This document shows, piece by piece, positions 32,361 to 53,670 of a stretch of 64,000 nt of DNA (position 1 is its first letter; each line of letters opens with the position of its first letter). This DNA is from Bacillus sp. REN16 (GTDB lineage: Bacteria; Bacillota; Bacilli; Bacillales; Bacillaceae_L), in NCBI RefSeq assembly GCF_020731355.1, contig NZ_JAJFZK010000001.1, forward strand, positions 1 to 64,000. Reading direction: 5' to 3'. The notes under the pieces are model-generated. The model saw nothing but the letters and a program-made list of their open reading frames with translations. It did no database searches and had not been told where the DNA came from. The translations under genes were made by a program, and so were the position numbers.

Positions 32361-34340
32361 GTGGGGATATTGGTAGATGAAGAAGCATTTTTAAGAGAAG
32401 CAGTGGGAAAGTATTCGAATAAAGAAACAGAAGAAACTTTACATAGGGCTAAGTTAGCATGTAAAAACACCTTTATTTTTACTCACCCTTGGGATATGGA
32501 ACGGTGTGAGGAAGAAATTCATTTTCCTAAATCAATAGATTGGACTTACTGTTTTAATGGTGATGAAGAATGGGCTTTTATGTTAAATCGCCAGCGTTTT
32601 ATGGCTGAAATAGGTATGGCCTATTTGTTAGAAAAGAATGAAGAATATGTGACCCACTGGAAAAGAATTTTTTATGAATGGGTTAAAGCGAATGAAGACA
32701 ATCGCATTCACCCATATACCTTTCGAAAAATAGATGCAGGAATTCGTGTTACAAATTGGTTAAAGGGTTATCAATACATACAGCAATCTCCACTTTGGGA
32801 TGAATCAGACAACGCTGTTTTTCTTCAACAATTGAAAGAGCATGGAAACTTTTTAAGTAAGCCATTTAGAGCTTTTGATTTTCAGAGTAATTGGGGATTT
32901 TTGGAGTTGAACGGACTGATTCAAGCAGCATTCTTGATGGATGAAGATACAAGGAACCAATGGATAAACGAAAGTCTCCAGCGTATTAATAAAATGATTC
33001 CTTTACAAATCTACAACGATGGCTACCAAAAGGAACAATCGCCAATGTATCATCATGAAGTGCTTCATTGTTTAGTAGAAATAAAGTTAATTTTAGAAAA
33101 AAATAAGTATGAGGTCCCGTACTATATTACGGATGCTGCCAATCGAATGTATACGGCATCGTTTCAATTAATGAAACCTAATCGACATCAACCAATGCTT
33201 GGCGATAGTGATGATACAGATCTACGGGGTATTCTTGCAACCGGAGCCGTTTTATTAAACCGCCCAGATTTAAAGTCGTTGACAGACGAATCTTTTATGT
33301 TTGAAGCACTCTGGTACTTCGGAAAAGATGGATTACAAAGATTTCATGCATTAAAATCTAAGGAACCATTATTTACTTCGGCAAATCTTGCGGACTCTGG
33401 TGTAACCGTTTTCCGCAGCGGGTGGGCTGAACAGGATGAATACCTCCTTTTTGACCATGGAATAATGGGGCATGTAAACAAAGGCCATGGACATGACGAT
33501 ACCTTGCATATTGAATTAATGGCTGGGGGCAGAGAGTTTTTAATGGACGGCGGACGTTATACCTATTGCGAAACGGAAGAAAGAAAATATTATAAAGAGG
33601 CAAAACGCCATAATACAATCACTGTTGATGGCTTTTCTGCTTCAGAATATGTGAATACATGGGAGTGGAAAAACGCAGCTAGGCAGGTAAATGAGTTTAG
33701 CCGTACCGAAGGAAAATACCAATACGCAGAGGCCGGACATACTGGCTATTGGCGCTTGGAATCCCCTGTTCATGTAACGAGAAAAATGATTTATTGCCCA
33801 TCAAAATATTGGTTTGTCCTTGATATTTTTCAAACAAACGGGGTACATAACTATGAACAATATTTGCACTTTCCTGAAAAAACACCGATAGAATGGACAG
33901 AAAATGGGGAGTTAACGACCACGTATCCAAATGGCACTAATTTAAAGATCATCCCATTGAATCTGACTCAAACAGATCATGTAACGATCAATAAGGGGAA
34001 GATATCAAGACATTATAATAAAGAAACTTCCGCTCCATCTGTTCTAGTTCAATATAAGGATAAAGGTTCATTCGTTGCTCCCTTCCTTATGATGGCGCTA
34101 ACAAAGGAAAAAGATGTTAAAACAAGAAAACTAGAAGTATCACACTTAAATGGAGCAATCAAGAATGAAATGGAAGCTGTAGCCTATGAAATATCAATAG
34201 ATGGTAAAAAAGATATTTTAGTATTTTCATTAAATGGTGCCGATAGTTTACTAGTTGAAGATTTTCAATTATGCGGGGAAACAGTAGTCATTTCTGAACA
34301 GGATGATCGAGGATTTAAGATTCACAATTTAAAGGCTTAA
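32361..34340 (+). CDS. Heparinase II/III-family polysaccharide lyase, cytoplasmic
   Basis: A 659-residue protein with an N-terminal alpha/alpha-toroid (about 20-330) and a C-terminal beta-sandwich (Hepar_II_III, about 340-650). The conserved stretch VNKGHGHDDTLHIELMAGG holds the Tyr/His-type site region, and FQSNWGFLELNGLI carries an Asn expected in these lyases. No signal peptide, so it should act on imported uronic-acid oligosaccharides. The exact PL family cannot be set by eye. The GTG start has GGGGGG upstream. It follows yhcW by 11 bases with no visible promoter, yet its function belongs with the locus further downstream. Confidence 0.85.
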   Translation: MGILVDEEAFLREAVGKYSNKETEETLHRAKLACKNTFIFTHPWDMERCEEEIHFPKSIDWTYCFNGDEEWAFMLNRQRFMAEIGMAYLLEKNEEYVTHWKRIFYEWVKANEDNRIHPYTFRKIDAGIRVTNWLKGYQYIQQSPLWDESDNAVFLQQLKEHGNFLSKPFRAFDFQSNWGFLELNGLIQAAFLMDEDTRNQWINESLQRINKMIPLQIYNDGYQKEQSPMYHHEVLHCLVEIKLILEKNKYEVPYYITDAANRMYTASFQLMKPNRHQPMLGDSDDTDLRGILATGAVLLNRPDLKSLTDESFMFEALWYFGKDGLQRFHALKSKEPLFTSANLADSGVTVFRSGWAEQDEYLLFDHGIMGHVNKGHGHDDTLHIELMAGGREFLMDGGRYTYCETEERKYYKEAKRHNTITVDGFSASEYVNTWEWKNAARQVNEFSRTEGKYQYAEAGHTGYWRLESPVHVTRKMIYCPSKYWFVLDIFQTNGVHNYEQYLHFPEKTPIEWTENGELTTTYPNGTNLKIIPLNLTQTDHVTINKGKISRHYNKETSAPSVLVQYKDKGSFVAPFLMMALTKEKDVKTRKLEVSHLNGAIKNEMEAVAYEISIDGKKDILVFSLNGADSLLVEDFQLCGETVVISEQDDRGFKIHNLKA

Positions 34341-34379: not shown

Positions 34380-35063
34380 TCAAGACATATTATTTATTAT
34401 GTCGATTACCTCATGTTGTACAAGCAGCTTTATGACTTCCTTCGTATTTCGTCTATCAAATTTTTTTAAGATACTATTCACTTGCTTTTTGATTGTATCT
34501 ATTTCGACACAACGCAGTTTGGCTATTTCTTTCCGAGAATAGTTATTACATAATAACTTTAAAACAATCAATTCGGATGGTGTTAGGGTTGATATGATTT
34601 TAAATATGGAAGAAAAATTAGCTTCTAATTGTTTTATTCTAGCAAATTCTTCACGAATTTTACTTGCGATAACTGGCCGAATTGGAGATGTATTTGTGAT
34701 GGCACAGTTAATTGCTTCAATGATTTCCTCTTTTGCCGCATTTTTTAGAACATAGTCCACTATCCCTGTTTGAAAAGCAGCGAAAACAAGATTATTATCC
34801 TGATGTACTGTTAGTATAATAATCTTAGTATCTGGTAACTGGCTGCTAATTTCTGAAGAAGCATTTATACCAGCCATATAATCTTCCATTTCAATATCCA
34901 TTAAGATAATATCAGGTTTCTTTGCTAATGACACTCTGACCGCATCCTGACCAGTTCCAACGGAATCAGTTAATACAAGGTTGGATTCATTTGAAATAAT
35001 ACGTTCTAAACGTCTACGATGTGCTTCAATGTCATCTGCAATAAGTATATCAATTTTTTCCAT
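34380..35063 (-). CDS. LuxR/NarL-type response regulator
   Basis: A 227-residue regulator. The receiver domain has DD at 10-11, phospho-acceptor Asp56 (IILMDIEME) and Lys in YVLKNA. The C-terminal LuxR helix-turn-helix is at about 160-220 (LTPSELIVLKLLCNNYSRKEIA). Its kinase gene lies just upstream on the same strand, 28 bases away, and is broken. It is inserted in the polysaccharide locus and divergent from the transporter, so it may control that operon. Confidence 0.88.
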   Translation of the reverse strand: MEKIDILIADDIEAHRRRLERIISNESNLVLTDSVGTGQDAVRVSLAKKPDIILMDIEMEDYMAGINASSEISSQLPDTKIIILTVHQDNNLVFAAFQTGIVDYVLKNAAKEEIIEAINCAITNTSPIRPVIASKIREEFARIKQLEANFSSIFKIISTLTPSELIVLKLLCNNYSRKEIAKLRCVEIDTIKKQVNSILKKFDRRNTKEVIKLLVQHEVIDIINNMS

Positions 35064-35091: not shown

Positions 35092-36590
35092 TCAAAGAAA
35101 AAGTGGTAAAAAGATACTAAATTGTGTGCCTTTATTTTGAACACTATCGATTTCTATTTTTCCTTCATGGCCTGAAACAATTTTATGACAATAGGAAAGT
35201 CCTATTCCCCAATTTGTTGAGGATGATTTCGTCGAATAAAAAGGGGGAAAATCTCATTAAAATTATCGGTCTGTATGCCACTCCCATTATCTTTGATTAT
35301 GATAACACCCCAATCGCCGATTTCCTCAACTTCAACTTCCACTATGCCTGTTTCTGCTGAAACAACTTCTAATGCGTTTTTAATCATATTATAGATGGAT
35401 TCTTGTAAATGATCTTCATCACCGCGAACAATAATTGAATGATTGGCTGGGTGGTATTTCAATAAAATCTTTGAATTTTTTAAATTAACCCTTTTTAAAG
35501 CGGTTTTGACAGGAATGTCCAGATCAATAGCCTGGAAATTCAAAGTAATTTGATTTAGTTTGTTACCGGCATCTTCAATTCGATTAAACGCCTGCTGACA
35601 ATAATCATGGATCAGATCAAGACTATAATGAGCCTCCTCATCATTACCAGCCCGTTCTTTTAAATACTCCGCTTCTGAACGTATTGCAACTAAATGATTT
35701 TTGATTGAATGGGTGAAAGCACGTATCCCCAAAGAAGCGGTGTCAATTCTTCGGTCAGTAGTATGGACTAGGTTTTTATAGTACATCTCAATTGAATTAT
35801 ATTTAAAAACGATATAAGCCATAAATACTAAAATAAGGACGGCTATTAACGGGAAAATTTGTATATTCAATAAAAAATTACTCATACTTGGATGTAAATA
35901 ATTTGGATAATCGGTACTAAAAGTGGCCCTTACCAGTATGTCTGGTGCCCAAGAGAACATAGATAAATAAACACATGCTAGCAGAAATAAACCAATAAGG
36001 TTAAAAAGGGTGTATCTTTTAATAAAACGAATATGTGAATGTGCGATATAGTACCGAATGAATAGAACAATACCGATAACAATAAATCCAATATTTAAAT
36101 ACATAAAGGCTTTGTCAACTACTTTAATGTAGGAATTGTAAAGTCCATGCAGGTTATGATCAATTGCTACGTTTTGTAAAAATAGGTTTATCTTCGGATC
36201 ATAGAAAATGTACTGCATGATTGCAATTATCGTGAGAACGATGTACCATGGGATCATTTTTCGATTGCCTATTCTGCTATTTGTATATGAAATAGAGAAT
36301 AATAGAAAACAAAGATAAAATAGAATTGCCCCAAAATTCAACAGCCGAATCAGAAAATTTGGATCGAAATTTTGCAGCACCAGATAATTCCAGGAACCTG
36401 GGGTGAAGTTAAAAAACTTACTCACAATTTTATAAGAAATATTGGATTTACTAAGATAGAGCACCAAACCAATAAAAGATAGTGTATAGCCAATTGTTAA
36501 ACTAAAGAGAAAAATGGTGGAGTAACTCGTTATATTTCGATAGATTAAGATAATTGTAATGGATAATAGCAAAATCGCGATAAAGAACAT
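35092..36590 (-). pseudogene. Sensor histidine kinase with a one-base frameshift before the G2 box
   Basis: The open frame (35202-36590) encodes 462 residues: about seven N-terminal membrane helices, an H box (THSIKNHLVAIRSE), an N box (YNMIKNALEVVS) and G1 (DNGSGI). It then runs off after FPLF into a short wrong tail. In the neighbouring frame the protein continues without a gap as YSTKSSSTNWGIGLSYCHKI and on to FSIFLPLFL, stopping at 35092. The break lies in a C5-T5 run near 35247; one extra T restores about 500 codons. Without the shift the G2 box and ATP lid are lost. It could be a true mutation, a sequencing error or recoding. Confidence 0.85.
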
Positions 36591-36711: not shown

Positions 36712-36740
36712 AATAAATGAAGTTAAAAGGGGGAAATATT

Positions 36741-38042
36741 TTGAAAAAGGTATTTAGTTATCTAATCTTTATTGCACTCGTCCTGTTTTTAGCAGCTTGT
36801 GGTGACTCTGCATCAGGTGATGGAGAAAAGACTGATGACTCTTCTAGTAAAAAAGAATCTGGAGAAGTTGCTTTAAAAGTAGCGGTATTTCCAGCAGATT
36901 TACCAACATTTGAAAGCGCATACGAAAAGTTCAAAGAAGAAAATCCAGATATCAAAGTAGAATTTGAAACATTCCCGCAAGAACAATACTATGAAAAAAT
37001 TAGAATGCAGCTTTCTGGTGGTATAGGTTATGACGTCTTTGCGGGTCAAATCGATACAATGATGGATACTGGTATTATTGAGCCACTTGATTCTTATATT
37101 GAAAAAAGTGATTTAGATGTAGCAGGATTTGCTTCTATGTATGATGCAATGAAGTACGATGAAGGAGTTTTAGGACTACCTTATCGTAAATCAAATAATA
37201 TGATGTTCTACAACAAAGATTTATTTGATCAAGCTGGTGTGGAATACCCAAGCGAGGACATGACTTGGGAGGAATTCCGTGAGGTTGCTAAGAAACTCAC
37301 TAGCGGAAGTGGTGCAGATAAAACTTACGGTGCGTATATTCAACAATGGCCTCAGCTTTGGTATATGCAAGGTGTCCAAACTGGAGCATCCATTATTGAT
37401 AAAGATTTAAGCATTTTCGAAGATTCTCTTCAATACCGTATGGATTTGGAAAAAGATGGTTCTATTATGAGCTGGTCAGAACAAGTTTCAACAGGTGCGC
37501 ATTATAATGCAGCCTTTCAAAAGGGAAATGTTGCAATGAATATCATTGGTGATTGGCATGTTGCCCAGCTTCGTCAAGCTGAAGAAGAAGGAAAGTTATC
37601 CTTTGACTGGGATGTCGTTCCTGTACCACATCCTGAGGGCGTAGAGGCAAATACGACACTTGCGTTACCAGTTTCTCTCATGTTGAATTCCAAGTCAGAA
37701 AACAAAGATGCGGCATTTACATTCCTGAGCTATATGACAGGTAAACAAGGCGCTGAAATCTTTGCTGGCGACGGATATCTTACTGGTTATGTAGATGAAG
37801 ATGTTAAATCTATTTATCTAGGAGATGGGTCACTAAAGCCCGTAAATGCACACTATTTCTTGGAAACTACTGAATACCCAGAGTATCCGATGTACGTTGG
37901 GGTTAAAAATATTGTAGTGCAGCAAATTTACAAACAAGAAGGAGAACTTGCTCTAATCGGTGAACAGACGGCAGATGAAGCCATCAAGAATATTGCAAAG
38001 CGTGTTCAAGACGAATGGGCTAGTAAATACGCTGATAAATAG
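36741..38042 (+). CDS. Oligosaccharide ABC transporter substrate-binding lipoprotein
   Basis: A 433-residue family 1 solute-binding protein. Its signal MKKVFSYLIFIALVLFLAAC ends in the lipobox LAAC, followed by a Ser/Asp-rich linker and the binding fold. The TTG at 36741 is chosen because AAAGGGGG lies 7 bases upstream; an ATG at 36717 would put extra residues before the signal. First gene of the operon with PL8 lyase, sulfatase and GH88 genes, so it most likely binds unsaturated glycosaminoglycan oligosaccharides. Confidence 0.9.
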   Translation: MKKVFSYLIFIALVLFLAACGDSASGDGEKTDDSSSKKESGEVALKVAVFPADLPTFESAYEKFKEENPDIKVEFETFPQEQYYEKIRMQLSGGIGYDVFAGQIDTMMDTGIIEPLDSYIEKSDLDVAGFASMYDAMKYDEGVLGLPYRKSNNMMFYNKDLFDQAGVEYPSEDMTWEEFREVAKKLTSGSGADKTYGAYIQQWPQLWYMQGVQTGASIIDKDLSIFEDSLQYRMDLEKDGSIMSWSEQVSTGAHYNAAFQKGNVAMNIIGDWHVAQLRQAEEEGKLSFDWDVVPVPHPEGVEANTTLALPVSLMLNSKSENKDAAFTFLSYMTGKQGAEIFAGDGYLTGYVDEDVKSIYLGDGSLKPVNAHYFLETTEYPEYPMYVGVKNIVVQQIYKQEGELALIGEQTADEAIKNIAKRVQDEWASKYADK

Positions 38043-38128
38043 GTATCAATGACACCAAAACATGGTGGGATGAGCACTGTATTAACAAATACGGTGCTTC
38101 ATTCTTATCATAGAAGGGAAGAAAAACG

Positions 38129-39028
38129 ATGAGTAAAAATAACAAAAAAAATACGACATTAAAAAAGAGAAATCGCCTCGTTGGTTATTCGTTTCTTCTG
38201 CCAAATATCTTAGGTTTTCTAGCTTTTATTTTCCTGCCAGTGATTGCGTCATTTTTAATGAGTTTTACGTCATGGAATGGGTTTGGAAAAATTGAATTTA
38301 TTGGGTTAGAGAATTACGTGAGATTGATTGGGGATACGGATTTTAAAATTTCATTAGTAAACACCGTATTATTTACCCTCATTTCAGTGCCTGTTACTTT
38401 ATTTTTATCAATCTTAATTGCGGTAGCAATTAACAAAGGGATGCGATTTGTAAAAGTGTTCCGTACAGCAGTTTTTTTACCTTATGTAACCTCAACAATT
38501 GCTGTAGCCGCTGTCTGGCAACTCATTTTTAATCCTACGGCTGGACCCGTTAATGGATTTTTATCGAACCTTGGGATTGAAAATCTACCAGGATGGTTTG
38601 CTTCTCCTGATTGGGCACTCGTATCCGTATCCATTGTATACATATGGCATTCTGTCGGATACTACATGATTATCTTTTTAGCAGGTTTGCAAGGAATTTC
38701 AGATGATGTTTATGAAGCGGCAAACATCGATGGCGCAGGGCCCATTACAAAGTTCTTTAAAATTACATTGCCAATGCTATCGCCAATTATGTTCTTTACT
38801 TCTATTATTGCAATCATCAATTCCTTTAAAGTGTTCGACTTTATCTACGCGTTAACAGGAGGAGGACCAGGTCGTTCTACGCAAGTGCTAGTGTACGATA
38901 TTTATACAACAGCCTTTAAGGAGTATGAATATGGGTATGCTTCTGCAATGGCCTATGTTCTGTTTATTTTAATTCTTATTTTTGCTTTATTAAATTATTT
39001 AGGGCAACGAAAATCCCTTAATGCATAA
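38129..39028 (+). CDS. ABC transporter permease, MalF-like (glycosaminoglycan locus)
   Basis: A 299-residue permease with six membrane helices and the EAA loop YEAANIDGAGPITKFFKITL. AAGGGAAG lies upstream of the ATG. It pairs with the next permease; both need an ATPase not present in the window. Confidence 0.9.
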   Translation: MSKNNKKNTTLKKRNRLVGYSFLLPNILGFLAFIFLPVIASFLMSFTSWNGFGKIEFIGLENYVRLIGDTDFKISLVNTVLFTLISVPVTLFLSILIAVAINKGMRFVKVFRTAVFLPYVTSTIAVAAVWQLIFNPTAGPVNGFLSNLGIENLPGWFASPDWALVSVSIVYIWHSVGYYMIIFLAGLQGISDDVYEAANIDGAGPITKFFKITLPMLSPIMFFTSIIAIINSFKVFDFIYALTGGGPGRSTQVLVYDIYTTAFKEYEYGYASAMAYVLFILILIFALLNYLGQRKSLNA

Positions 39029-39059
39029 CGAATTTAGACAAAGAGGAGGGAATCGATTT

Positions 39060-39941
39060 ATGGAATTAGTAACGAATTCAAAAAAAGTGGAATTGAAGAA
39101 AAATCATAAAAAACTACTGCCAAAAATGAAACTAGGCACCATCATGAAATATGTATTTATAATTGCCTTGTCACTCTTAATGGTAATTCCTTTTATTTGG
39201 ATGCTTTCTTCTTCTTTTAAGGCAGAATCTGAAATATTTGGAATTCCTATTCAGTGGATACCAGAAACGTTTTACTGGAGTAATTATGTAGAAGTGTGGA
39301 CGAGGGTACCGTTTCATATTTACTATTTGAACACATTAAAAATAACTGTAATCACGGTAATTCTCAACGTGATCACAAGTTCAATGGCAGGATATGCGTT
39401 TGCGAAAGTAAGATTTCCGGAACGCGATAAATTATTCTTCCTTTATTTAGCAACGATGATGATTCCGTATCAAGTGATGATGATTCCGCAATTTATGTTG
39501 ATGAGTGAGCTTGGACTAGTGAATAATCATTTATCGCTCATCTTATTGGGAGCATTTAACCCATTTGGAGTATTCTTGTTCCGCCAATTTTTCACATCTA
39601 TCCCTGATGAATTATTAGAGGCTGCAAGAATTGATGGTTTAAATGAATTTGGAATATATCTCAGAATTATTTTGCCATTGTCGAAACCGGCAATTGCGAC
39701 CTTAGTTATCTTTTCTTTCATGCATACATGGAATGACTTCCTTGGACCATTGATTTATTTAACATCGGATCATCTATACACGATCCAATTAGGGATCCAG
39801 CATTTTGTGACCGAATATAACACTGAGTACGCCTTATTAATGGGGGCTGCAGTTTCTGCGATTATCCCGACTGTTATTGTCTTTTTCTTAGCGCAAGACC
39901 ATTTCGTTAAAGGAATTGCATCATCGGGTATTAAAGGATAA
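39060..39941 (+). CDS. ABC transporter permease, MalG-like (glycosaminoglycan locus)
   Basis: A 293-residue permease with about six helices and the EAA loop LEAARIDGLNEFGIYLRIIL. The ATG at 39060 is chosen since GAGGAGGG lies 9 bases upstream. The in-frame ATG at 39021, inside the previous gene, would add 13 polar residues and has no ribosome site. Confidence 0.9.
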   Translation: MELVTNSKKVELKKNHKKLLPKMKLGTIMKYVFIIALSLLMVIPFIWMLSSSFKAESEIFGIPIQWIPETFYWSNYVEVWTRVPFHIYYLNTLKITVITVILNVITSSMAGYAFAKVRFPERDKLFFLYLATMMIPYQVMMIPQFMLMSELGLVNNHLSLILLGAFNPFGVFLFRQFFTSIPDELLEAARIDGLNEFGIYLRIILPLSKPAIATLVIFSFMHTWNDFLGPLIYLTSDHLYTIQLGIQHFVTEYNTEYALLMGAAVSAIIPTVIVFFLAQDHFVKGIASSGIKG

Positions 39942-40048
39942 AAAATGAATTAGTGGTGAAAAGTATTATGTCCCCACTGTTTCAAATTCTCCAAAGGAAC
40001 GACGACATGAGTGGCATTAAGAAAACATAATTGGGAGTGTAGAAAAAA

Positions 40049-43000
40049 ATGAGATCTATCAGAAGAATAGGAATACTAACTGTGATTTGCTTCTTAGTAT
40101 TAACTAGTCTTACAGGAAATCAATTTTTTGCGAATGCCAACAATGTCAATAATGCAAATTTATTAAACCCCGGATTTGAAGAAACGGTTGACCCGGGCGG
40201 GGGGTGGGATGGGTTAGGAGCATCAAATTGGAATGTTTGGGTGCCAACTGGTGATCCCATTGTTTCAATCTCAGAAGAAGCGAGAATGGAAGGTAAATAT
40301 GGCCTATTGATTCGAGCGAATGAAACAGCACGTACGTCTGTTAATCAGGATATTCCTGTCACAGGCGGGGACCATTACCGGGTTAGCAGCTGGCTTAAAA
40401 CAGATAACATTGTTAGCGGTCAGGGGGCTAGGATCCGCATTACCACATTTGTAGGGGATCAACAATTGGATTTAATTTATTCGGATCGATTCACAGGAAC
40501 TCATGACTGGACAAAGATTGAAAAGGATTTAGATCTTCCGGCAGAAGTTGATCGAATTCGAGTTCAGCTTTTCTTTGAAACTGGAACGGGTACAGCAATG
40601 TTTGACAATGTGTCCGTAGAGCATATTAACCCTGCAAAAAAGATTACTATTCATGAAGAGGAAATCACATTAGTAGAGCAGGAAAGCACCAAGTTACATT
40701 TAATGGTTGAACCCTCAAATTCTAGCTCTACAATAACTTGGTTGTCCTTGGATGAGAAGGTTGCAATGATTGAAAACGGAAAGGTTTTTGCAGTTGGAGA
40801 AGGTGAAACTAAGATTATTGTCTTTTCAGACAATGGTTTACAAGATAGCGTTACCGTGAAAGTAAGTCGTAATGAAGAAATGGCAAAGCCAGAATTAGAA
40901 AAAATTAGTTTAAAGCCTGCTGAACTAGCATTAGTTACTGGTCAAGTAAGAGTCATTGATGTGATATCTCAACCACAAGATGCGGTTACGGATAATCTCG
41001 TTTGGTCTTCTTCCAATCAGGAGGTCGTTAATGTTAAAAATGGTGTAGTCGAAGCCTTAGGTGCAGGATCAGCAGTTGTTAAGGTGCAGAATGAAGAGGG
41101 TACTTTAACAAGTGAAACAACGTTTACTGTTACTGAGGCTATTAAGGATGAATACGACGGGCTCAGAAAAAGATGGGAGAGTTCGCTAACTTCCAATGAA
41201 TATTACGATCCAACCAATGAGCGAATGATTCAAGTAATTGAAAACCAAACCACTAAAGCAGAACATTTGTGGAGGACCATGAACAAAAACCAAGAGAGAT
41301 CCTTCTTATGGATTGAGTATTCTGCCTTCGATAATTCCTCTGATATTCGGGATAGTTATCGTAACTTAACAGCTATGGCGAAATCATTTGCAAATGAACA
41401 TTCCACTTTATATCAGAATCCGGAATTATTTAAGGATATTGCTTCTGGATTAGAATGGCTTTATGAAAATCACTATAATGAATCAATTAGTCAATGGAGC
41501 AATTGGTGGCATTGGGAAATCGGAGTTCCTAAGGAGTTAAATGATTTAATGGTACTCTTATACGATTATGTAGATTTAGATACCGTTCATCGTTATTTAG
41601 CTGTAGTCGATCATTTTCAGCCAGATCCCACAAAATCGGGAGCAACTACACCAAATAATTACCGAGAAGCAGTTGGTGCAAACCGTATAGATGTAAGTAA
41701 AGTCGTTGCTGTTCGAGGTGTAATTGTAAAGGATAGTGGGAAAATCGCAGCTGCGCGCGATGCACTTAGTCAAACCTTCCTAAATGTTACTCAAGGAGAT
41801 GGTTTTTATGAGGACGGTTCCTTTATCCAGCATGAAGATGTTGCATACACTGGCTCCTACGGTAATGTCCTCCTAGAAGGGTTAACAGATATGTTAGAAC
41901 TATTAAGTGATTCTACTTGGAAGGTCACTGACCCTAATGTTGAAAATGTGTATGAATGGGTGGGGAAATCATATGAACCGCTAATGTACAAAGGTGCACT
42001 AATGGATATGGTGCGAGGAAGAGCGATTTCAAGGTCATTCTTACAAGACCATCAAGCGGGGCAAACAATCATTAAAACTGTTATACGGATGGCGGAATTT
42101 GCACCAGAACCATATGCTCAAAAATATAAGGCTATGGCAAAATTCTGGATTGAAGAGGATGAATATTATAACTACTTTAAAAATACAAGTAACTTCAAGG
42201 ACTATTCACTTGCACAAGATTTAATCAATGATGCATCCGTCATTTCAAGAGGAGAACTGGATCTTCATGTAACTTATGCAAATATGGATCGGATTATTCA
42301 CCGTAAAACAGGATATGCATTTGGTATAAGCATGTACTCAAAACGTGTACAAAACTACGAAGATATGAATAACGAAAATCGAAAAGGCTGGTATACCGGA
42401 GAAGGAATGACATATTTGTATAATGGCGACCTGGCCCAATATAGTGATGATTTTTGGGCGACAGTTAATCCTTACCGGATGCCAGGAACTACCATTGATA
42501 CTATGCATAGAGCAGATGGCAGCGGTGAGCATAATTCCACACAAACATGGGTGGGCGGTTCAACGCTCAATACTTACGGAACTGCTGGAATGTCTTATGA
42601 TGCATGGAATAGCACTTTAGTAGCTAAGAAATCATGGTTTATGTTCAATGATGAAATTGTTGCACTAGGAGCAGGAATTTCAAGTGATGAAACGAGAAAC
42701 GTGGAAACGATTATTGAAAATCGAAAAATTCGAGATGATGGTTCAAACCGGCTAATTATTAATGGAGAAATTCAGGATGGCAAAGAAAAAACGCTTACTG
42801 CGAATTGGGCATTCCTTGAAGGGACTGTAAAAGGTGCTGATATCGGTTATTACTTCCCTAACGAAAAACAAATTACTGTAAAAAAGGAAGAAAGAACAGG
42901 CGCATGGTCTGACATTAATTATACAGAACCAACAGATAAGGTTAGCAGGTCGTATGCATCGATGTGGATTAACCATGGTGTTGCACCGCAGCAAGATACG

Positions 43001-43435
43001 TATGCATATGTCCTTCTTCCAAGTAAGAGTCAAGAACAAACAGAACAATATGCTCTCAACCCTGATATTGAGATTTTGAAAAACGATGATGCTGTTCAGG
43101 CGGTTTATGATAAAAGAGAACATATCGTTGGGGCAAATTTCTGGACTAATGAGAGGCAGACAGTTGGACCTTTAACCGTTGACCAGCAAGCTTCCATTAC
43201 AATGCAGGCAAAAGATGGGGTTCTAGAAATTGCAGTTTCTGACCCGACCATGGAAAACGAGGGTTATATCGAAATTGAAATTGAAGGTAAGGCATTTTCT
43301 GTATTAGAAGCTGATAAGAACATTGAAGTAGTGAAAACAAAACCTTCAATTAAATTAAAAGTAAATGTAAAAGACGCAAAAGGTGAAACTTTTAAAACAA
43401 AACTAAAACTTATTCCAAATCAATATAAGTTTTAG
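40049..43435 (+). CDS. Secreted PL8 polysaccharide lyase (chondroitin/hyaluronan type)
   Basis: A 1128-residue exported lyase: signal peptide (about 1-30), a carbohydrate-binding-like beta-sandwich (about 35-190), two Big2-like Ig domains (about 195-365), then the PL8 alpha/alpha toroid, central super-sandwich and C-terminal domain. Catalytic residues align with Streptococcus pneumoniae hyaluronate lyase: Asn545 (GANRIDVSK), His595 and Tyr604 (IQHEDVAYTGSYG), with the same 50 and 9 residue spacings; the aromatic patch Trp486-Trp487 is in SNWWHWEIG. PL8 also includes xanthan lyases. No cell-wall anchor motif is seen, so it is released or held by its N-terminal domains. It starts extracellular breakdown. 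Confidence 0.93.
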   Translation: MRSIRRIGILTVICFLVLTSLTGNQFFANANNVNNANLLNPGFEETVDPGGGWDGLGASNWNVWVPTGDPIVSISEEARMEGKYGLLIRANETARTSVNQDIPVTGGDHYRVSSWLKTDNIVSGQGARIRITTFVGDQQLDLIYSDRFTGTHDWTKIEKDLDLPAEVDRIRVQLFFETGTGTAMFDNVSVEHINPAKKITIHEEEITLVEQESTKLHLMVEPSNSSSTITWLSLDEKVAMIENGKVFAVGEGETKIIVFSDNGLQDSVTVKVSRNEEMAKPELEKISLKPAELALVTGQVRVIDVISQPQDAVTDNLVWSSSNQEVVNVKNGVVEALGAGSAVVKVQNEEGTLTSETTFTVTEAIKDEYDGLRKRWESSLTSNEYYDPTNERMIQVIENQTTKAEHLWRTMNKNQERSFLWIEYSAFDNSSDIRDSYRNLTAMAKSFANEHSTLYQNPELFKDIASGLEWLYENHYNESISQWSNWWHWEIGVPKELNDLMVLLYDYVDLDTVHRYLAVVDHFQPDPTKSGATTPNNYREAVGANRIDVSKVVAVRGVIVKDSGKIAAARDALSQTFLNVTQGDGFYEDGSFIQHEDVAYTGSYGNVLLEGLTDMLELLSDSTWKVTDPNVENVYEWVGKSYEPLMYKGALMDMVRGRAISRSFLQDHQAGQTIIKTVIRMAEFAPEPYAQKYKAMAKFWIEEDEYYNYFKNTSNFKDYSLAQDLINDASVISRGELDLHVTYANMDRIIHRKTGYAFGISMYSKRVQNYEDMNNENRKGWYTGEGMTYLYNGDLAQYSDDFWATVNPYRMPGTTIDTMHRADGSGEHNSTQTWVGGSTLNTYGTAGMSYDAWNSTLVAKKSWFMFNDEIVALGAGISSDETRNVETIIENRKIRDDGSNRLIINGEIQDGKEKTLTANWAFLEGTVKGADIGYYFPNEKQITVKKEERTGAWSDINYTEPTDKVSRSYASMWINHGVAPQQDTYAYVLLPSKSQEQTEQYALNPDIEILKNDDAVQAVYDKREHIVGANFWTNERQTVGPLTVDQQASITMQAKDGVLEIAVSDPTMENEGYIEIEIEGKAFSVLEADKNIEVVKTKPSIKLKVNVKDAKGETFKTKLKLIPNQYKF

Positions 43436-43553: not shown

Positions 43554-44996
43554 ATGGAGAGTAACCCGAGACCCAACCTAGTGTATATATTTGCGGATCA
43601 ATGGAGAAGACAGGCGGTGGGTTATGAAGGGGAAGATCAAGTAATCACACCCAATATAGATGCTTTTTCCGAAGAAGGTACCGTTTTCTCAAATGCATTA
43701 ACGGTATCACCATTATGCTCGCCCCACCGTGCATCCTTACTTACAGGAAAATATCCAATAAGCACAGGTGTATTTACCAACTGTAAAGTTGGTGCAGACG
43801 TAATGCTGCAACCAGATGAAATTTGTATAGGTGATGTACTGGCAGACTCAGGATACGAAACCTGCTATATCGGAAAATGGCATTTAGATTTACCTGAACT
43901 TAATGTGTCTGATAATCCTGTTTCTGGTGCTAATGGATGGGATGCCTACACACCGCCTGGTCCAAAACGACATGGATTTCAGCATTGGTATTCATACGGA
44001 GCATGGGACGACCACTTAGCTCCTCATTACTGGGGAGATAGCCCCGAAAAAATAAAAGTTCAACAATGGTCTCCCGAACATGAAACAGATAAAGCGATTG
44101 AGTTTATTGAAAAGCGGAATCAAGATAGCGCTTTTGCACTCTTTGTTTCTTGGAATCCACCACATAGCCCGTTTGATCAGGTACCAGATAAATATCGAAA
44201 AGTATATGAAGGGACAGACATCAAGTTCCGAGAAAATATAGAAATTCAAGATCCCCTATTGGTACATACAGGGGAACATATAGAAGGTGGAGAAGAGAGA
44301 CTAAAAGAGAATCAACTTAATTATTTTGCTGCAATAACAGGATTAGATGAACAGTTTGGTAGGATTCTAGAAACGTTAAAAGAGAAAAAACTTGAGGAAA
44401 ATACAATTGTTGTACTTACTTCAGATCATGGTGAAATGATGGGATCACATGGGCTAATGGCGAAGCATGTATGGTATGAGGAGTCGATCGGAGTACCGTT
44501 TATCATTCGTTGGCCAAATAAAATTCCATCCGTCAAATCAGATGTATTACTAAATACGGTTGATATTATGCCTACTATTTTATCATTAATGAAACTGACA
44601 ACGCCTGATACAGTCGAGGGGACAGATCTGTCGGATTACATTATTAAACAAAGCAATGATGGACCTGGCCATGCATTTATAACTTGCTATCCTGGTCGAA
44701 AAGAGGCATTAGAACAGTTCCAAAATGCAGGAGTTAGTAATCTCGCCTATGGGTGGCGTGCGATAAGAACGAAAGAATATTTGTATGTGATTCATAATGG
44801 GTATTCTCCTGAGGATGCGCAAAACCGATTATTTTATAAATTAATGGAGGATCATTATCAACAACGCCCGGAAACAATCCTAGAACCGGAAAAACATCCA
44901 ATCGTTTCAAGTTTAGAGGAAAAATTATGCAATTGGTTAAAAGAAATGAATGATCCATTTTTACTAAATCAAACGAAAAAGGCGGTAGAACAATGA
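43554..44996 (+). CDS. Cys-type sulfatase 1, cytoplasmic
   Basis: A 480-residue alkaline-phosphatase-fold sulfatase. The activation motif is Cys55-Ser-Pro-His-Arg59 (LCSPHRASLLTG), a C-x-P-x-R site whose Cys becomes formylglycine. Metal ligands are in IFADQW and LTSDHGEMMGSHGL; signature II is YIGKWHLD. There is no signal peptide, so desulfation happens inside the cell. It overlaps the GH88 gene by 4 bases (ATGA), which suggests action on the same sulfated disaccharide. The sulfate position is unknown. Confidence 0.92.
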   Translation: MESNPRPNLVYIFADQWRRQAVGYEGEDQVITPNIDAFSEEGTVFSNALTVSPLCSPHRASLLTGKYPISTGVFTNCKVGADVMLQPDEICIGDVLADSGYETCYIGKWHLDLPELNVSDNPVSGANGWDAYTPPGPKRHGFQHWYSYGAWDDHLAPHYWGDSPEKIKVQQWSPEHETDKAIEFIEKRNQDSAFALFVSWNPPHSPFDQVPDKYRKVYEGTDIKFRENIEIQDPLLVHTGEHIEGGEERLKENQLNYFAAITGLDEQFGRILETLKEKKLEENTIVVLTSDHGEMMGSHGLMAKHVWYEESIGVPFIIRWPNKIPSVKSDVLLNTVDIMPTILSLMKLTTPDTVEGTDLSDYIIKQSNDGPGHAFITCYPGRKEALEQFQNAGVSNLAYGWRAIRTKEYLYVIHNGYSPEDAQNRLFYKLMEDHYQQRPETILEPEKHPIVSSLEEKLCNWLKEMNDPFLLNQTKKAVEQ

Positions 44997-46192
44997 CTGT
45001 AATTGTAAATGAAGTAAAAACAGAAAAGATTATAGATAAGGCAAGATTTGAACAGAATTCCAAAGTAGATCGCGCATTCGTTGAAAAAGCAATTGACCAT
45101 GTTTTAGCGAAAATTGACCAAAGTCTAGATATTTTCACAGATTATTTTCCAGATTCAAATAGCCATAATCAAGTGTATCCTCCAATCGAAAACGTAGAGT
45201 GGACGACAAGCTTCTGGACAGGAATGCTGTGGCTTGCTTATGAATGGACGGGGGATGAAAAATATCGAAAAGTTGCAGAAAAGCAGCTAGACAGTTTTGC
45301 AGAACGTCTAGAAAAAAGAATTGAAGTTGATCATCATGATTTAGGATTTCTATATTCGTTGTCATGTGTGAATGCTTATCAATTAACTGGAAATGAAAAG
45401 GCAAAGGAAACAGCCATTAAAGCGGCTGACCTTTTAATTACTAGGTATTACGACAAAGCGGGAATTATCCAAGCATGGGGAAATCTTAATGATCCAGCAG
45501 AACGTGGCAGAATGATTATTGATTGCAATCTGAATCTACCATTACTCTACTGGGCATCTGAAGTTACAGGCGACAAAAAATATCATCAAATTGCAGAAAG
45601 CCATGTCAAACAAGCAGCAAAATATATTGTGAGGGAAGATGCTTCTACATTCCATACGTATTATATGGATCCGGAAACGGGTGAGCCATTGTATGGAAAT
45701 ACAAGACAAGGATATTCCGATGATTCTTGTTGGGCACGCGGTCAAGCATGGGGAATCTACGGTTTTCCGTTAAGTTATTCATATACGAATGATTGGAGCC
45801 TAATTGAATTAACAAAAAAACTGACAAACTACTATTTAAATAGAATACCTGAGGATTATATTTGCTATTGGGATTTAATCTTTACTGATGGTGAGGAAGA
45901 AAGAGATAGCTCTGCAGCGGCTATTACGGCATGTGGATTACTTGAATTAACGAAGTATCTGCCACTAACCGATGAAGATAAAAAATTATACGAAAATGCT
46001 GCATTATTGATGGTTCAATCACTTTATGAAAACTATCGAACTGAAATTGATAGTGAAGCAAATGGAATTCTAAAGCATGCGGTCTATTATAAAGGCGGCG
46101 GTCGCGGAATTGATGAAAGCTGTATTTGGGGAGATTACTACTATTTTGAAGCCCTCATTCGGTTGGCAAAAGACTGGAAAAAGTACTGGTAA
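44993..46192 (+). CDS. GH88 unsaturated glucuronyl hydrolase
   Basis: A 399-residue alpha/alpha-barrel enzyme that removes the 4,5-unsaturated uronic acid from lyase products. Key residues Asp116 (HHDLGFLYS) and Asp177 (MIIDCNLNLPLL) are 61 residues apart, as Asp88 and Asp149 are in Bacillus sp. GL1 UGL. There is no signal peptide, so it is cytoplasmic. The released uronate needs the Kdu/Kdg enzymes, which are not encoded here. Translationally coupled to sulfatase 1. Confidence 0.93.
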   Translation: MTVIVNEVKTEKIIDKARFEQNSKVDRAFVEKAIDHVLAKIDQSLDIFTDYFPDSNSHNQVYPPIENVEWTTSFWTGMLWLAYEWTGDEKYRKVAEKQLDSFAERLEKRIEVDHHDLGFLYSLSCVNAYQLTGNEKAKETAIKAADLLITRYYDKAGIIQAWGNLNDPAERGRMIIDCNLNLPLLYWASEVTGDKKYHQIAESHVKQAAKYIVREDASTFHTYYMDPETGEPLYGNTRQGYSDDSCWARGQAWGIYGFPLSYSYTNDWSLIELTKKLTNYYLNRIPEDYICYWDLIFTDGEEERDSSAAAITACGLLELTKYLPLTDEDKKLYENAALLMVQSLYENYRTEIDSEANGILKHAVYYKGGGRGIDESCIWGDYYYFEALIRLAKDWKKYW

Positions 46193-46253
46193 ACAAATAG
46201 ATGGGTTAATGTAACATAATGTCGACATCTAACTAGAGAAGGGGAAGACGGAT

Positions 46254-46853
46254 ATGGGAATAAACGACAGTAAATTATATAGGGCAATGGATTTTATCAT
46301 GAACACCTTTTTATTAAACTTAATTTGGGTTCTCACGTGTATTCCCATTATCACGATTTTTCCTGCAACAGCTGCTATGTTTGGAGTGGTCCGTGAATGG
46401 AAAAGAGAAGGCGATATCAGGATATTCGCCTCCTTTTTCCGTTATTTTAAAGAAAATATAAAACAAGGAATTGTCCTCCAGTTAATCTGGTTATTCATTG
46501 CCTTTCTTTTTATCATTAACTTTAATTTCACGAACCAAATTCCATCCAATGTGAAGTATTTGTTATTCATGCTCTATTTCTTGGTGTTACTCTTATTTAT
46601 CTTTACTTCGATGTACTTATTCCCAGTCATGGTTCAATTTAAAGTGACTTGGATGCAAGCAATTCGAAATGCTCTTATATTATCGATTAGCAATCTTCAA
46701 TATACTCTTATATTGCTATTGATTCTGATTATTGGTGCTGTTACTATTTATTATTTTGCAGGAGCTACAATGTTAATTTTTAGTATAGCTGCATATTGCA
46801 TTTATAGTGTTGCGGACCGTACTTTTAGTAAGGTAACAGAAGAAGTACTCTGA
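46254..46853 (+). CDS. DUF624 (YesL-like) membrane protein
   Basis: A 199-residue protein with about five membrane helices, opening GINDSKLYRAMDFIMN. DUF624/YesL proteins are found in Bacillus polysaccharide-use operons next to YesMN-type systems and ABC transporters; their function is unknown. It is the last gene before the terminator of the transporter-lyase operon. Confidence 0.85.
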   Translation: MGINDSKLYRAMDFIMNTFLLNLIWVLTCIPIITIFPATAAMFGVVREWKREGDIRIFASFFRYFKENIKQGIVLQLIWLFIAFLFIINFNFTNQIPSNVKYLLFMLYFLVLLLFIFTSMYLFPVMVQFKVTWMQAIRNALILSISNLQYTLILLLILIIGAVTIYYFAGATMLIFSIAAYCIYSVADRTFSKVTEEVL

Positions 46854-46874
46854 AAATCAAAAAAAAGCAGAAAG

Positions 46875-46917
46875 TTAAGTAGTGGAAATTAATTATCTAA
46901 CTACTTAATTTTTTTAG
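46875..46917 (+). terminator. Terminator of the transporter-lyase-sulfatase operon
   Basis: TTAAGTAGT / ACTACTTAA stem followed by TTTTTTT. Confidence 0.85.
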
Positions 46918-46968
46918 TTATCGGGTTGAGCCGTCAACTGAACGGTGGTATTTTAAAAATGTATTAGT

Positions 46969-46996
46969 TTGAAAGTCCCAACATGCATGGTATTAT
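46969..46996 (+). promoter_or_regulatory. Promoter of the GntR regulator gene
   Basis: TTGAAA (46969-46974), 16-base spacer, TATTAT (46991-46996), about 45 bases before the start codon. GTCAAC upstream (46933) is also found in the next promoter, so it might be part of an operator. Confidence 0.55.
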
Positions 46997-47041
46997 TAAC
47001 TTGTTGAATATTGAAAATCGTTAGAAGAGGATGAAGGCAAT

Positions 47042-47773
47042 ATGGTTAACCCATTAAATCATGGGACATTTATTCCACTTTATTATCAGCTAAAAGAAAT
47101 CATTGAGAAGAAGATTGAAACGGGCGAATGGAAGCCAGGTGACAAGATTCCTTCTGAAAATGACTTACGGACATCCTATAATGTAAGTCGAAATACAGTT
47201 CAAAAAGCATTAAATGACCTCGTTACAGAAGGGTTGTTAGAAAGAATTCAAGGAAAAGGAACATTTATATCTAAACCCAAAATAGAGCAATCCTTAACTA
47301 GTTTTTATAGCTTTAGTAAAGTTATGGAGAATAAAGGGATGAACCCAAAAGATATTCTTTTGAACTTAGATATCCAAACTGTTCCTAATAAAATAGCTAA
47401 GGAACTTCAAATTAGTGTTGAAGAAAAAGTGGTAACGTTACAGCGTATTCGTACGGCTAACAACGAACCTATTATCCTGGAGACATCTTATATACCAAGT
47501 AAGTTAGTACCTGGGTTAAGACGTGAAGATATCGAAGCATCTTCTTTATATGGTTTATTAGAAAATAAATATGAGATTATTGTATCGAAAGCAGTCGAAG
47601 CATTTGAACCCGTTCTAGCAAGTAAAGAAGAGAGTAAATACCTGCAGATTGAAGAGGGTGCGCCTAGTCTTTTATTAGACCGTACTGCATATGATATTCA
47701 AGGTAATCCGGTAGAATTTTGCCGCTCAATTGTTAGAGGAGATCGCTGTAGGTTCTATACAGAACTTCTCTAA
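47042..47773 (+). CDS. GntR/HutC-family transcriptional regulator (UTRA domain)
   Basis: A 243-residue regulator. The N-terminal winged helix (about 10-75, PLYYQLKEIIEKKIETGEW and NVSRNTVQKALNDL) is followed by a UTRA ligand domain. NagR/AgaR-like members bind amino-sugar phosphates. Its place directly before the amino-sugar operon makes it the likely repressor of that operon, with GlcN-6-P or GalN-6-P as possible effector (inference). Confidence 0.9.
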   Translation: MVNPLNHGTFIPLYYQLKEIIEKKIETGEWKPGDKIPSENDLRTSYNVSRNTVQKALNDLVTEGLLERIQGKGTFISKPKIEQSLTSFYSFSKVMENKGMNPKDILLNLDIQTVPNKIAKELQISVEEKVVTLQRIRTANNEPIILETSYIPSKLVPGLRREDIEASSLYGLLENKYEIIVSKAVEAFEPVLASKEESKYLQIEEGAPSLLLDRTAYDIQGNPVEFCRSIVRGDRCRFYTELL

Positions 47774-47791
47774 AATTTTTTGAAAATAAAA

Positions 47792-47821
47792 TTGCACCCA
47801 ACAACCTGTCAACGGTATAAT
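47792..47821 (+). promoter_or_regulatory. Promoter of the amino-sugar operon
   Basis: TTGCAC (47792-47797), 18-base spacer, perfect TATAAT (47816-47821). The spacer holds CAACAACCTGTCAACGG, a possible GntR operator placed to block polymerase. Confidence 0.7.
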
Positions 47822-47873
47822 GAGAATACAGTATATTTAAAACAAATTTTTGTAGTGAGGGGAGAGTGAGAAG

Positions 47874-48800
47874 ATGAAACGAGCATTAGGAGTGGATATT
47901 GGAGGAACGAAGATTGCTGCGGCAATTATTGATGAAGAGGCAAACATTCTTTATCGTTCGGAGGTACCAAGTGATCCATCAGATAAAGAAAAGATGTTTG
48001 AGCAAGTAGTGAACGTAATTAACAATGTATTGGATGAATCCCATTTAAACATACAACAAATAGAGGGCATTGGTTTAGGAGTACCAGGAATTTTAGATCG
48101 AGATTCAGGTATTGCTATTTTCCAAAATAATTTACCCTGGAAGGGCTTTCCGATTGTAAAACGAATAAAGGAAGCTTTTCCAGTAGAAAAAGTTGTGATT
48201 GATAATGACGTTTATATGGCGGCGTTTGCGGAGTGGCAAATGTATGGAGCAAATCAAAATGAAACCTTTGTTTACTTTACGATCAGTACTGGTATTGCGG
48301 TTTCAATCATTCATAACGGAGATTTTATCCGAGGAATGGGATTTGCAGGTGAGCTAGGACTATTTCCTGTGAAAGCGGCGAATGGAATAGAAAGACTTGA
48401 GCAAGCGGCAGCAGGTCCAGCCATTCAAAGATTGACGAACAACACGATGACGTCCAAAGAAGTGTTAGAAAAGTATCAGCAACAGGATGAATATGCACAT
48501 TCTGTGATTTCAAATGTAGTTGAATCACTTGCCCATGGCTGTTATGCCATAACCTGTATATTGGACCCTCAAAAAATAGTCTTTGGGGGAGGCGTTATTA
48601 ATAATAATGCTTTTCTTCTTCCATTAATCAAGCAGAAAATGGAAGAGTACTGCATTCCAGACCAGAAAGCTGCTGTTAGCCGATTACATATAAGTCAATC
48701 AAAGGGAGACGCTGGTGTACTTGGTGCAGGACTCAGAGTGTTCAATAGGAAGGGTGTTGAAGACTGTGGAAAAACCAAACATCTTATTAATCACGAGTGA
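47874..48800 (+). CDS. ROK-family sugar kinase, probable N-acetylgalactosamine kinase
   Basis: A 308-residue ROK protein. The ATP site is GVDIGGTKIAAAI and the catalytic Asp is in VIDNDVYMAAFAE. The usual ROK zinc motif (G-H then C-x-C-G-x2-G-C-x-E) is missing: the region reads GELGLFPVKAANGIERLEQ. There is no N-terminal DNA-binding domain, so it is a kinase, not a repressor. With agaS, an NagA-type deacetylase and tagatose genes in the operon, GalNAc is the likely substrate, as with AgaK in non-PTS pathways. It overlaps the next gene by about 35 bases. Confidence 0.85.
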   Translation: MKRALGVDIGGTKIAAAIIDEEANILYRSEVPSDPSDKEKMFEQVVNVINNVLDESHLNIQQIEGIGLGVPGILDRDSGIAIFQNNLPWKGFPIVKRIKEAFPVEKVVIDNDVYMAAFAEWQMYGANQNETFVYFTISTGIAVSIIHNGDFIRGMGFAGELGLFPVKAANGIERLEQAAAGPAIQRLTNNTMTSKEVLEKYQQQDEYAHSVISNVVESLAHGCYAITCILDPQKIVFGGGVINNNAFLLPLIKQKMEEYCIPDQKAAVSRLHISQSKGDAGVLGAGLRVFNRKGVEDCGKTKHLINHE

Positions 48801-50277
48801 TCAACAGCACTTTAATACGATAGGAGCATTTAATTCAGAAATTCAAACACCAAACCTTGACCGCCTAGTTGAGGAGGGTATTACATTTCAGCGAGCATAC
48901 TGTCCTAATCCAACCTGTACACCGTCACGCGCATCCATTATTACGGGAATGTATCCGAGCCAGCACGGGGCATGGACTCTAGGAACAAAATTATTAGAAG
49001 ATCGACATACAATAGGGGAATACTTACAGAAAAATAATTATCGTACTGCATTGGTAGGAAAGGCTCATTTCCAACCAACTAAAACAACCGAGGAATACGA
49101 GTCGGTAGAATCCTATCCATTATTAGCAGATTTAGAGTATTGGAAGTCATTTGATCAAGAATTTTATGGGTTTGAGCATGTTGAACTGGCAAGAAACCAT
49201 ACAAATGAACATCTAGTTGGGCAACACTATGCTTTATGGATGGAAGAAAAGGGCTGTGAAAATTGGCGGGATTATTTTCTTGCACCCACGGGTAACATGG
49301 ACCCAGAAATAAAATATACATGGGATATTCCTGAAGAGTATCACTATGATACCTGGATAGCGGAAAGGACAAACGCTCTGCTAGAAGATTACGTGAAAAA
49401 TGGTGAGAATTTCTTTCTATGGTCTAGCTTTTTTGATCCCCATCCACCTTATCTTGTACCAGAACCGTGGGATAAGATGTATGATCCAGAGCAATTGACC
49501 ATACCAAAAGGAAAGGAAGGGGAGCATAAGCAAAATCCCCCTCATTTTCAATTAACTCAGGAACTGAACCCTGATTTCAGCTCTTACATGGAAACTGGTT
49601 TTGGAATTCATGGATACCATTCACATCGTGACGTGGAGGAGGAAGATCATAAGAAGCTTACTGCTACCTATTTCGGAATGATTAGTATGATGGATAAATA
49701 TATCGGAAAAATAATTGATAAGCTTGATGAACTTGGTATTGCTGATAATACGATCCTTGTTTTTACAAGCGATCATGGTCATTTCTTTGGCCAGCATGGT
49801 CTTCAGTATAAAGGCGGGTTTCATTACGAAGATTTGATTAAGGTACCTTTTATTGTCCGATATCCAGGACAAATTCCAGCAGGAGTTGTTTCGGATGCGT
49901 TGCAATCATTGGTCGATCTTTCACCTACTTTTATGGATTTTGCAGGTTTGGAGCTGCCAATTGACATGACGGGTATCAGTCAAAAGGAAGTTTGGACAGG
50001 AAAACAAAGCAGTGCCCGTGATCATATCGTTTGTGAATTCCGCCATGAACCTACGACCATTCATCAAAAAACGTATGTAGATGAGCGGTATAAAATAACA
50101 GTTTACTATAACCAATCATATGGGGAGCTATTTGATTTGCAAGAGGATCCCAACGAAAACCACAATCTATGGAATAATCCAGATTACGCTACCTTGAAAA
50201 TGGAGCTCTTGCTGAAATATATTTGGGCTGAATTGGGGAAAGAACTTCTCCCGATGCCACGGATATCCCATGCATAA
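48766..50277 (+). CDS. Cys-type sulfatase 2, cytoplasmic
   Basis: A sulfatase of about 503 residues. The activation site is Cys51-Thr-Pro-Ser-Arg55 (PTCTPSRASIITG), the classic C-x-P-S-R form. Metal site segments are ITSDQQHFNTIG and FTSDHGHFFGQHGL; signature II is LVGKAHF. No signal peptide. The start is uncertain: GTG at 48766 has AGGAAGGG 11 bases upstream, while GTG 48754 and TTG 48757 are too close to it. Lying between the kinase and agaS, it may act on sulfated GalNAc or GalNAc-sulfate disaccharides. Confidence 0.92.
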   Translation: MEKPNILLITSDQQHFNTIGAFNSEIQTPNLDRLVEEGITFQRAYCPNPTCTPSRASIITGMYPSQHGAWTLGTKLLEDRHTIGEYLQKNNYRTALVGKAHFQPTKTTEEYESVESYPLLADLEYWKSFDQEFYGFEHVELARNHTNEHLVGQHYALWMEEKGCENWRDYFLAPTGNMDPEIKYTWDIPEEYHYDTWIAERTNALLEDYVKNGENFFLWSSFFDPHPPYLVPEPWDKMYDPEQLTIPKGKEGEHKQNPPHFQLTQELNPDFSSYMETGFGIHGYHSHRDVEEEDHKKLTATYFGMISMMDKYIGKIIDKLDELGIADNTILVFTSDHGHFFGQHGLQYKGGFHYEDLIKVPFIVRYPGQIPAGVVSDALQSLVDLSPTFMDFAGLELPIDMTGISQKEVWTGKQSSARDHIVCEFRHEPTTIHQKTYVDERYKITVYYNQSYGELFDLQEDPNENHNLWNNPDYATLKMELLLKYIWAELGKELLPMPRISHA

Positions 50278-50317
50278 CAATGAATATCGAATTCTATTAA
50301 AGTGAGGAGATGCTTTT

Positions 50318-51466
50318 ATGTTGAAGTTAGATGGAGCTACTCATACGGCTTCTGAAATTTTCCAACAACCATTAGTTTGGAAGAAGTCAATTTCTCTTTT
50401 TGCAGAGAAAAGGAATGAATATAAGGGTTTTTTACAGGAAATCTACTCAAAGCATGAAGTTGTTAAAGTTATTTTAACCGGTGCTGGAACTTCTGCTTTT
50501 ATCGGTGATATTCTGGCACCAATCTTTAAACAAGAGGGAAAAAATAAAGTCTTTTTTGAAGCTGTTCCAACAACCGATATTGTGTCTAATCCAACTGAAT
50601 ATTTGGTTTCAGAAATACCGACAATTCTTGTTTCGTTTGCACGCTCCGGACAAAGTCCTGAAAGTGTGGCAACAGTAAATCTTGGGCAGCAGCTAATAAA
50701 AGACTTTTATCAAGTAGTCATTACTTGTAATAAAGACGGTCAGCTCGCAAAAAACGTTCAAGACGATAAGAATAGTATTGTTATTCTGCTGCCTGAGGAA
50801 GCGAATGATAAATCGTTAGCCATGACTAGTAGCTTTTCTTGCATGATGTTAATGGCATACGCATTGTTTACGAACAATCCTTCTTTTGACCAAGAGATGA
50901 ATCTAGTTATTGAGAATGGTCAGCATTTAGTCACTACGGTAAATACAACAGTAGATACGGTATTGGAATATGATTTTAATCGTATTATTTATCTTGGATC
51001 AGGGCTGCTTGGCCAATTGGCCCACGAAGCCTCTTTAAAAATGCTAGAGCTAACAGCTGGAAAAGTGGTTGCAGCATTCGAATCTTCATTAGGCTTCCGT
51101 CATGGTCCAAAATCAATTCTTAACGATCAATCTGTTGTTGCATTGTTCGTATCAAGTGACCCTTATACGAGAAAATATGATCTTGATATTCTTAAAGAAA
51201 TCTCAGGAATTCCAGGTGTAAAAGTGATCGCCTTAAGTGAAAAATTAGACGAAACAGTAGAACAATATGCTGATTGGAAAATTCCTGTGAACACATCAGG
51301 TGAATTAGTGAAAAACGATTTTTACTTAGCTTTATTATATATTGTCTTTGCCCAAACATTGGCAATGAAGAAATCTATAAATCTAGGCATTTCACCTGAT
51401 AATCCGAGTCCAGATGGTGTAATTAGCCGTGTCGTTCAGGGCGTAACAATCTACGATTACAAGTGA
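50318..51466 (+). CDS. agaS: AgaS, D-galactosamine-6-phosphate deaminase/isomerase
   Basis: A 382-residue protein with two SIS domains (LTGAGTSAFIGD and YLGSGLLGQLAHEASLKMLELTAGKV). FGSSLGFRHGPKS-like residues (ESSLGFRHGPKS) are typical of the AgaS/GlmS family. AgaS turns galactosamine-6-phosphate into tagatose-6-phosphate and ammonia. It fixes the amino-sugar branch as galactosamine rather than glucosamine, although some AgaS-like proteins have other specificities. Confidence 0.9.
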   Translation: MLKLDGATHTASEIFQQPLVWKKSISLFAEKRNEYKGFLQEIYSKHEVVKVILTGAGTSAFIGDILAPIFKQEGKNKVFFEAVPTTDIVSNPTEYLVSEIPTILVSFARSGQSPESVATVNLGQQLIKDFYQVVITCNKDGQLAKNVQDDKNSIVILLPEEANDKSLAMTSSFSCMMLMAYALFTNNPSFDQEMNLVIENGQHLVTTVNTTVDTVLEYDFNRIIYLGSGLLGQLAHEASLKMLELTAGKVVAAFESSLGFRHGPKSILNDQSVVALFVSSDPYTRKYDLDILKEISGIPGVKVIALSEKLDETVEQYADWKIPVNTSGELVKNDFYLALLYIVFAQTLAMKKSINLGISPDNPSPDGVISRVVQGVTIYDYK

Positions 51467-51491
51467 GATGTTAGTTAAAGGAAGAATGACA

Positions 51492-52637: not shown

Positions 52638-52697
52638 TTGGATATGTCTTAGAACACGATTGCAAGTAAAAATTCCTAGATAAGGATGATGATAGAT

Positions 52698-53573: not shown

Positions 53574-53581
53574 CCTTGATG

Positions 53582-53647
53582 AGGTGGGGAATCAAAAACC
53601 TGTGTGTGATTAGACGCGCAAGGCGATGGTCCTCACCTTTTTTTAAA
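53582..53647 (+). terminator. Attenuator-like hairpin between aldolase and kinase genes
   Basis: AGGTGGGGA / TCCTCACCT closes a 46-base loop and is followed by TTTTTTT. It lies inside an otherwise continuous operon, so it may reduce kinase expression. Confidence 0.55.
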
Positions 53648-53670
53648 ATAATGAGGTGAGGTGTATATTC

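Follow-up and report, generated by a model that had tools for sequence, protein, structure and literature searches.

A probable recent one-base deletion that would inactivate the sensor histidine kinase beside a putative glycosaminoglycan locus in Bacillus sp. REN16

The stretch of 64,000 nucleotides of the Bacillus sp. REN16 genome analysed here (the window) contains a sensor histidine kinase gene whose reading frame ends early, while the missing end of the protein is encoded in a neighboring frame. This locus raises the question whether the kinase has been inactivated by a recent mutation, whether a base was merely dropped from the assembly, or whether the cell switches or recodes the gene at the homopolymers next to the break. 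The features around the break are the following:

36590..35202, minus strand: truncated sensor histidine kinase ORF with ATG start, 462 aa, ending in ...DNGSGIQTDNFNEIFPLFIRRNHPQQIGE*
35204-35202, minus strand: premature stop codon TAG that ends the kinase ORF
35092..35244, minus strand: conserved C terminus of the kinase in the -1 frame, 50 codons plus stop, including the G2 box and the final part of HATPase_c
35247-35243, minus strand: C5 run (GGGGG on the plus strand), where the indel lies in comparison to the orthologues
35242-35238, minus strand: T5 run, of the same length as in the intact orthologue of the sister species
35244..35250, minus strand: heptamer U_UUC_CCC of the X_XXZ_ZZN type, in-frame, weak class

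The truncated ORF encodes a membrane-rich N terminus, an H-box (FTHSIKNHL), the HATPase N box and the G1 box. Its final ~10 amino acids, shortly past NEIF, are out of frame. In the -1 frame the gene reads ...FPPFYSTKSSSTNWGIGLSYCHKIVSGHEGKIEIDSVQNKGTQFSIFLPLFL* up to the stop at 35092, the conserved part of this tail being PFYSTKSSSTNWGIGLSYCHKI...FLPLFL. For comparison we used the intact orthologue of the sister species (G007 = L032), which is 76% identical and lies at the same locus between the same neighbours. The Pfam domain HATPase_c (model length 111) is split over two frames in REN16, with positions 1-63 in the ORF and 59-109 in the tail; the intact sister protein (P0001) covers positions 1-109 in one frame. 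A complete HATPase_c with its N, G1, F and G2 boxes is thus not found in any single frame of the broken kinase. Because the tail shares about 90% identity (90.4%) with the C terminus of the orthologue and ORF and tail cover complementary parts of HATPase_c, we take it that the frameshift is not due to chance. This agrees with the sequence-only reading, which had described a one-base frameshift with an early stop in the ORF and an otherwise intact end, G2 box included, in the next frame. The gene is present as a single copy in the genome, and a search of the plasmid collection with the kinase DNA gave zero matches.

The DNA alignment sets GAGATTTTC-CCCCTTTTTATTC of the window against GAGATTTTCACTCCTTTTTATTC of the sister; in codons, the sister reads GAG ATT TTC ACT CCT TTT TAT and REN16 reads GAG ATT TTC CCC CTT TTT ATT. 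Both sequences have five T here, so the run has kept its length. All six intact orthologues, which share 42-96% mutual identity, have TTY ACN CCN TTY at this site. Their ACN codon (Thr) is invariant, and it is here, upstream of T5, that one base is absent in REN16. The C5 run occupies the place where the orthologues have CACNCC or similar, and no orthologue has a counterpart of the C tract. Read from this alignment, the shortest route to the REN16 sequence would be the loss of one base of the Thr codon plus one substitution. These two changes together create the C5 run, which would probably be a consequence of the deletion rather than its cause. It had been proposed that adding one T to the T5 run mends the gene. 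Inserting a T does restore the frame, but T5 is not the site of the lesion, as the run is already full-length in the intact sister. For the same reason the relative lends no support to T6 as the expected true sequence, and the homopolymer explanation is not supported, the missing base being part of the threonine codon upstream of the T run.

The sequence-only reading had listed a sequencing error and a recent inactivation among its options, and both are kept as the leading readings. We consider it probable that a recent, ordinary one-base deletion, real in the strain, inactivates the sensor kinase. A sequencing or assembly error, with the gene intact in the organism and the base dropped from a draft of 73 contigs, is somewhat unlikely but has to be taken seriously. 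The frameshift is isolated within an otherwise conserved gene, and a gene free of further decay is just as compatible with an error. Furthermore, Antonov et al. expect many isolated, BLASTp-validated frameshifts to be sequencing errors (PMC3711429). However, at the position of the missing base the expected true sequence (a Thr codon and then CC) contains no long homopolymer, and the usual miscount of a homopolymer would not explain the loss. An original C6 would likewise place Pro where the orthologues have the invariant Thr.

The frameshift load of the assembly was assessed as well. The sample, 585 kb in total, consisted of 404 kb from contig C1 together with two regions at the FtsZ_C genes, and was compared with ~680 kb of the sister genome (~120,000 aligned residues in ~350 orthologous genes). 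Several further candidates, which lay at the starts of genes or in ORFs of very small size, were excluded as start-site or non-coding differences, part of them after inspection base by base. The REN16 assembly contains three frameshifted genes, that of the sister a single one. Besides the sensor kinase, the REN16 cases are a gene for a xylose-isomerase-like TIM-barrel protein (G000:C1:160549, L060 ~16549) with a two-base insertion (GGGGACTATT vs GGGCTATT in the sister), and a small, poorly conserved gene on C60 (G000:C60 ~154,150, L075 ~11,150) that lost one base (CT-A7 vs CTT-A7 in the sister). Only in the last of the three does a long run (A7) adjoin the lesion. The frameshift in the sister assembly (L098 ~393-414, G007:C29 ~40,400) concerns one base at a TTT run; the REN16 copy of the affected gene is intact. 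We judge this load to be ordinary and the genome not to be unusually rich in errors, which favours, without proving, a real mutation in the kinase gene.

In order to estimate the age of the lesion we compared selection ahead of and beyond the break. In comparison with the sister, Ka/Ks amounts to 0.118 for the part preceding the shift and to 0.109 for the tail of 50 codons, values which point to purifying selection in both parts. Over the whole kinase 26 amino-acid changes are unique to REN16 and 21 to the sister (binomial p 0.56); in the tail the numbers are 1 and 0. Under neutral evolution of the tail along the entire REN16 branch, one would expect it to carry 24 to 67 non-synonymous changes, depending on Ks, and at most 5 are observed. 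No relaxation of selection after the break is thus seen in the kinase, as would fit a very recent event. Since purifying selection persists up to and beyond the break, the lesion should be young relative to the divergence of the two species, if it is not an error.

Further options would have the frame restored in some cells, on some ribosomes or in some mRNAs. The first of these, reversible phase variation in which slipped-strand changes of C5 or T5 toggle the kinase, is very unlikely. Two homopolymers do lie side by side, and poly(A) tracts can switch two-component genes, as in the case of agrA of Staphylococcus aureus (PMC6686034). However, the 585 kb of the REN16 genome contain T5 at 3063 and C5 at 255 places when both strands are counted, and the combination C5T5 at 6. 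The orthologues lack the C tract altogether and the length of the T run has not changed, so that the site offers no long or conserved hypermutable tract. The earlier proposal of phase variation finds no footing in runs that are this short, common and partly absent from the relatives.

The second option, programmed -1 ribosomal frameshifting at U_UUC_CCC, would yield some full-length kinase in which Pro replaces the conserved Thr. The motif lies in the correct phase, nothing interrupts the -1 product, and purifying selection still acts on the tail. On the other hand, motifs with CCN in the A site are on average less shift-prone than those with UUN or AAN, and in E. coli shift-prone heptamers without stimulators reach only 2-10 times the background of ~0.05% (PMC4066793). 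The RNA downstream of the shift is no more stable than shuffled sequences (z 0.48), and all six orthologues encode the kinase in one frame, none of them with U_UUC_CCC. Apart from the phase of a weak-class slippery motif, neither a downstream structure nor a conserved transition between frames was found, and recoding on the T run, as suggested by the sequence-only reading, is not supported for the same reasons. We regard programmed frameshifting as highly improbable. The same low probability applies to the idea that the lineage retains the shifted gene and makes low amounts of full-length kinase by -1 slippage at this heptamer; if true, such slippage would lower the dosage of the sensor without loss of the gene.

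Finally, transcriptional slippage on C5 or T5 might mend the frame in some mRNAs. Homopolymers exist at the site, but they are only 5 nucleotides long compared with a criterion of ~9 A/T, the length from which selection against slippage is visible in a large share of bacterial genomes (PMC1088944). We give this option next to no weight. Altogether no evidence singles out the site as a switch.

A recent deletion is the favoured reading. One base would recently have been dropped from the invariant Thr codon of the FTPFYSTK motif in the ATP-lid region of the HATPase domain, upon which ribosomes would run out of frame for ~10 codons before being halted by the TAG. The product would retain the membrane sensor, the phospho-acceptor helix and the G1 box, and would be without the G2 box, the final beta strands and what follows of the ATP lid; such a truncated kinase would very probably be unable to phosphorylate its regulator. 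When aligned with solved kinases such as ZraS (9jfj), the missing segment covers their ATP lid, their G2 box and their last strands, so that autophosphorylation has very probably been abolished. As in a pseudogene, the frame is broken in comparison to intact orthologues and part of a required domain is gone. From one assembly we infer that the deletion is truly present in the genome, and with it that the kinase is dead.

The consequences would extend to the neighboring genes:

34380..35063, minus strand: cognate NarL/LuxR-like response regulator, intact
32361..34340, plus strand: heparinase II/III-like protein, convergent with the regulator gene
36717..43435, plus strand: solute-binding protein, two ABC permeases and PL8 polysaccharide lyase, divergent from the kinase gene
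43554..57012, plus strand: remainder of the putative glycosaminoglycan locus, with two sulfatases, GH88, DUF624, GntR-UTRA, ROK kinase, SIS, amidohydrolase, class II aldolase, PfkB, radical-SAM sulfatase maturase and sulfatase-modifying-factor-like protein

The response regulator had been described as intact, and this was borne out: it has 227 aa and shares 89% identity with its sister orthologue. Judged by its encoded functions, amino-sugar catabolism among them, the gene set would fit the use of a sulfated glycosaminoglycan, e.g. chondroitin sulfate. The regulator would be deprived of its own kinase and the adjoining locus mis-regulated, a reasonable suggestion of the sequence-only reading. 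At the far end of the locus (54724-57012) the radical-SAM (anaerobic) sulfatase maturase adjoins the sulfatase-modifying-factor-like protein, and two alternative routes of sulfatase activation may lie side by side there.

Within the genus, which by the best public match would be Fredinandcohnia/Ferdinandcohnia (Bacillaceae), the kinase gene is present in 2 of the 9 genomes searched (both numbers include REN16). Orthologous kinase-regulator pairs in other Bacillaceae and relatives (L032, L033, L034, L102-L104) show the same kinase architecture. Elsewhere in the order, similar genes for a regulator, a transporter or a lyase are adjacent, as far as the stretches are readable. The orthologous kinases associated with a PL8 lyase or an ABC transporter are all intact with FTPF(Y/F)STK, whereas the REN16 copy is broken. 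A second kinase-regulator pair (L035), also intact, lies in the sister genome beside a sulfatase and an ABC-type substrate-binding protein. This second kinase is a paralogue (29% identical) whose best match in REN16 is the broken kinase itself; a search of the REN16 genome with it revealed no separate full-length counterpart. Another histidine-kinase match, with one internal TAA stop, lies at G000:C73:137996-138409 and is possibly a second broken kinase of this genome.

The kinase gene should be annotated as frameshifted, and the relevance of the case lies mainly in annotation and quality control. Until the base has been checked, the strain is unsuited for inferring the normal control of the glycosaminoglycan locus. 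The case also shows that a homopolymer adjoining a frameshift need not be its cause. Among known systems, Agr loss and phase variants of S. aureus (PMC6686034) are similar in that small indels inactivate a two-component system at an otherwise intact locus. Reversible changes of a poly(A) tract have been demonstrated there, in contrast to the REN16 tract, which is not conserved and is known from one assembly sequence. There is also a close likeness to frameshift pseudogenes and the singleton fs-genes of GeneTack (PMC3711429), which share a one-base shift in a conserved gene, unshifted orthologues and an unconvincing recoding signal. The REN16 kinase does not differ substantially from these and is a fresh instance of them.
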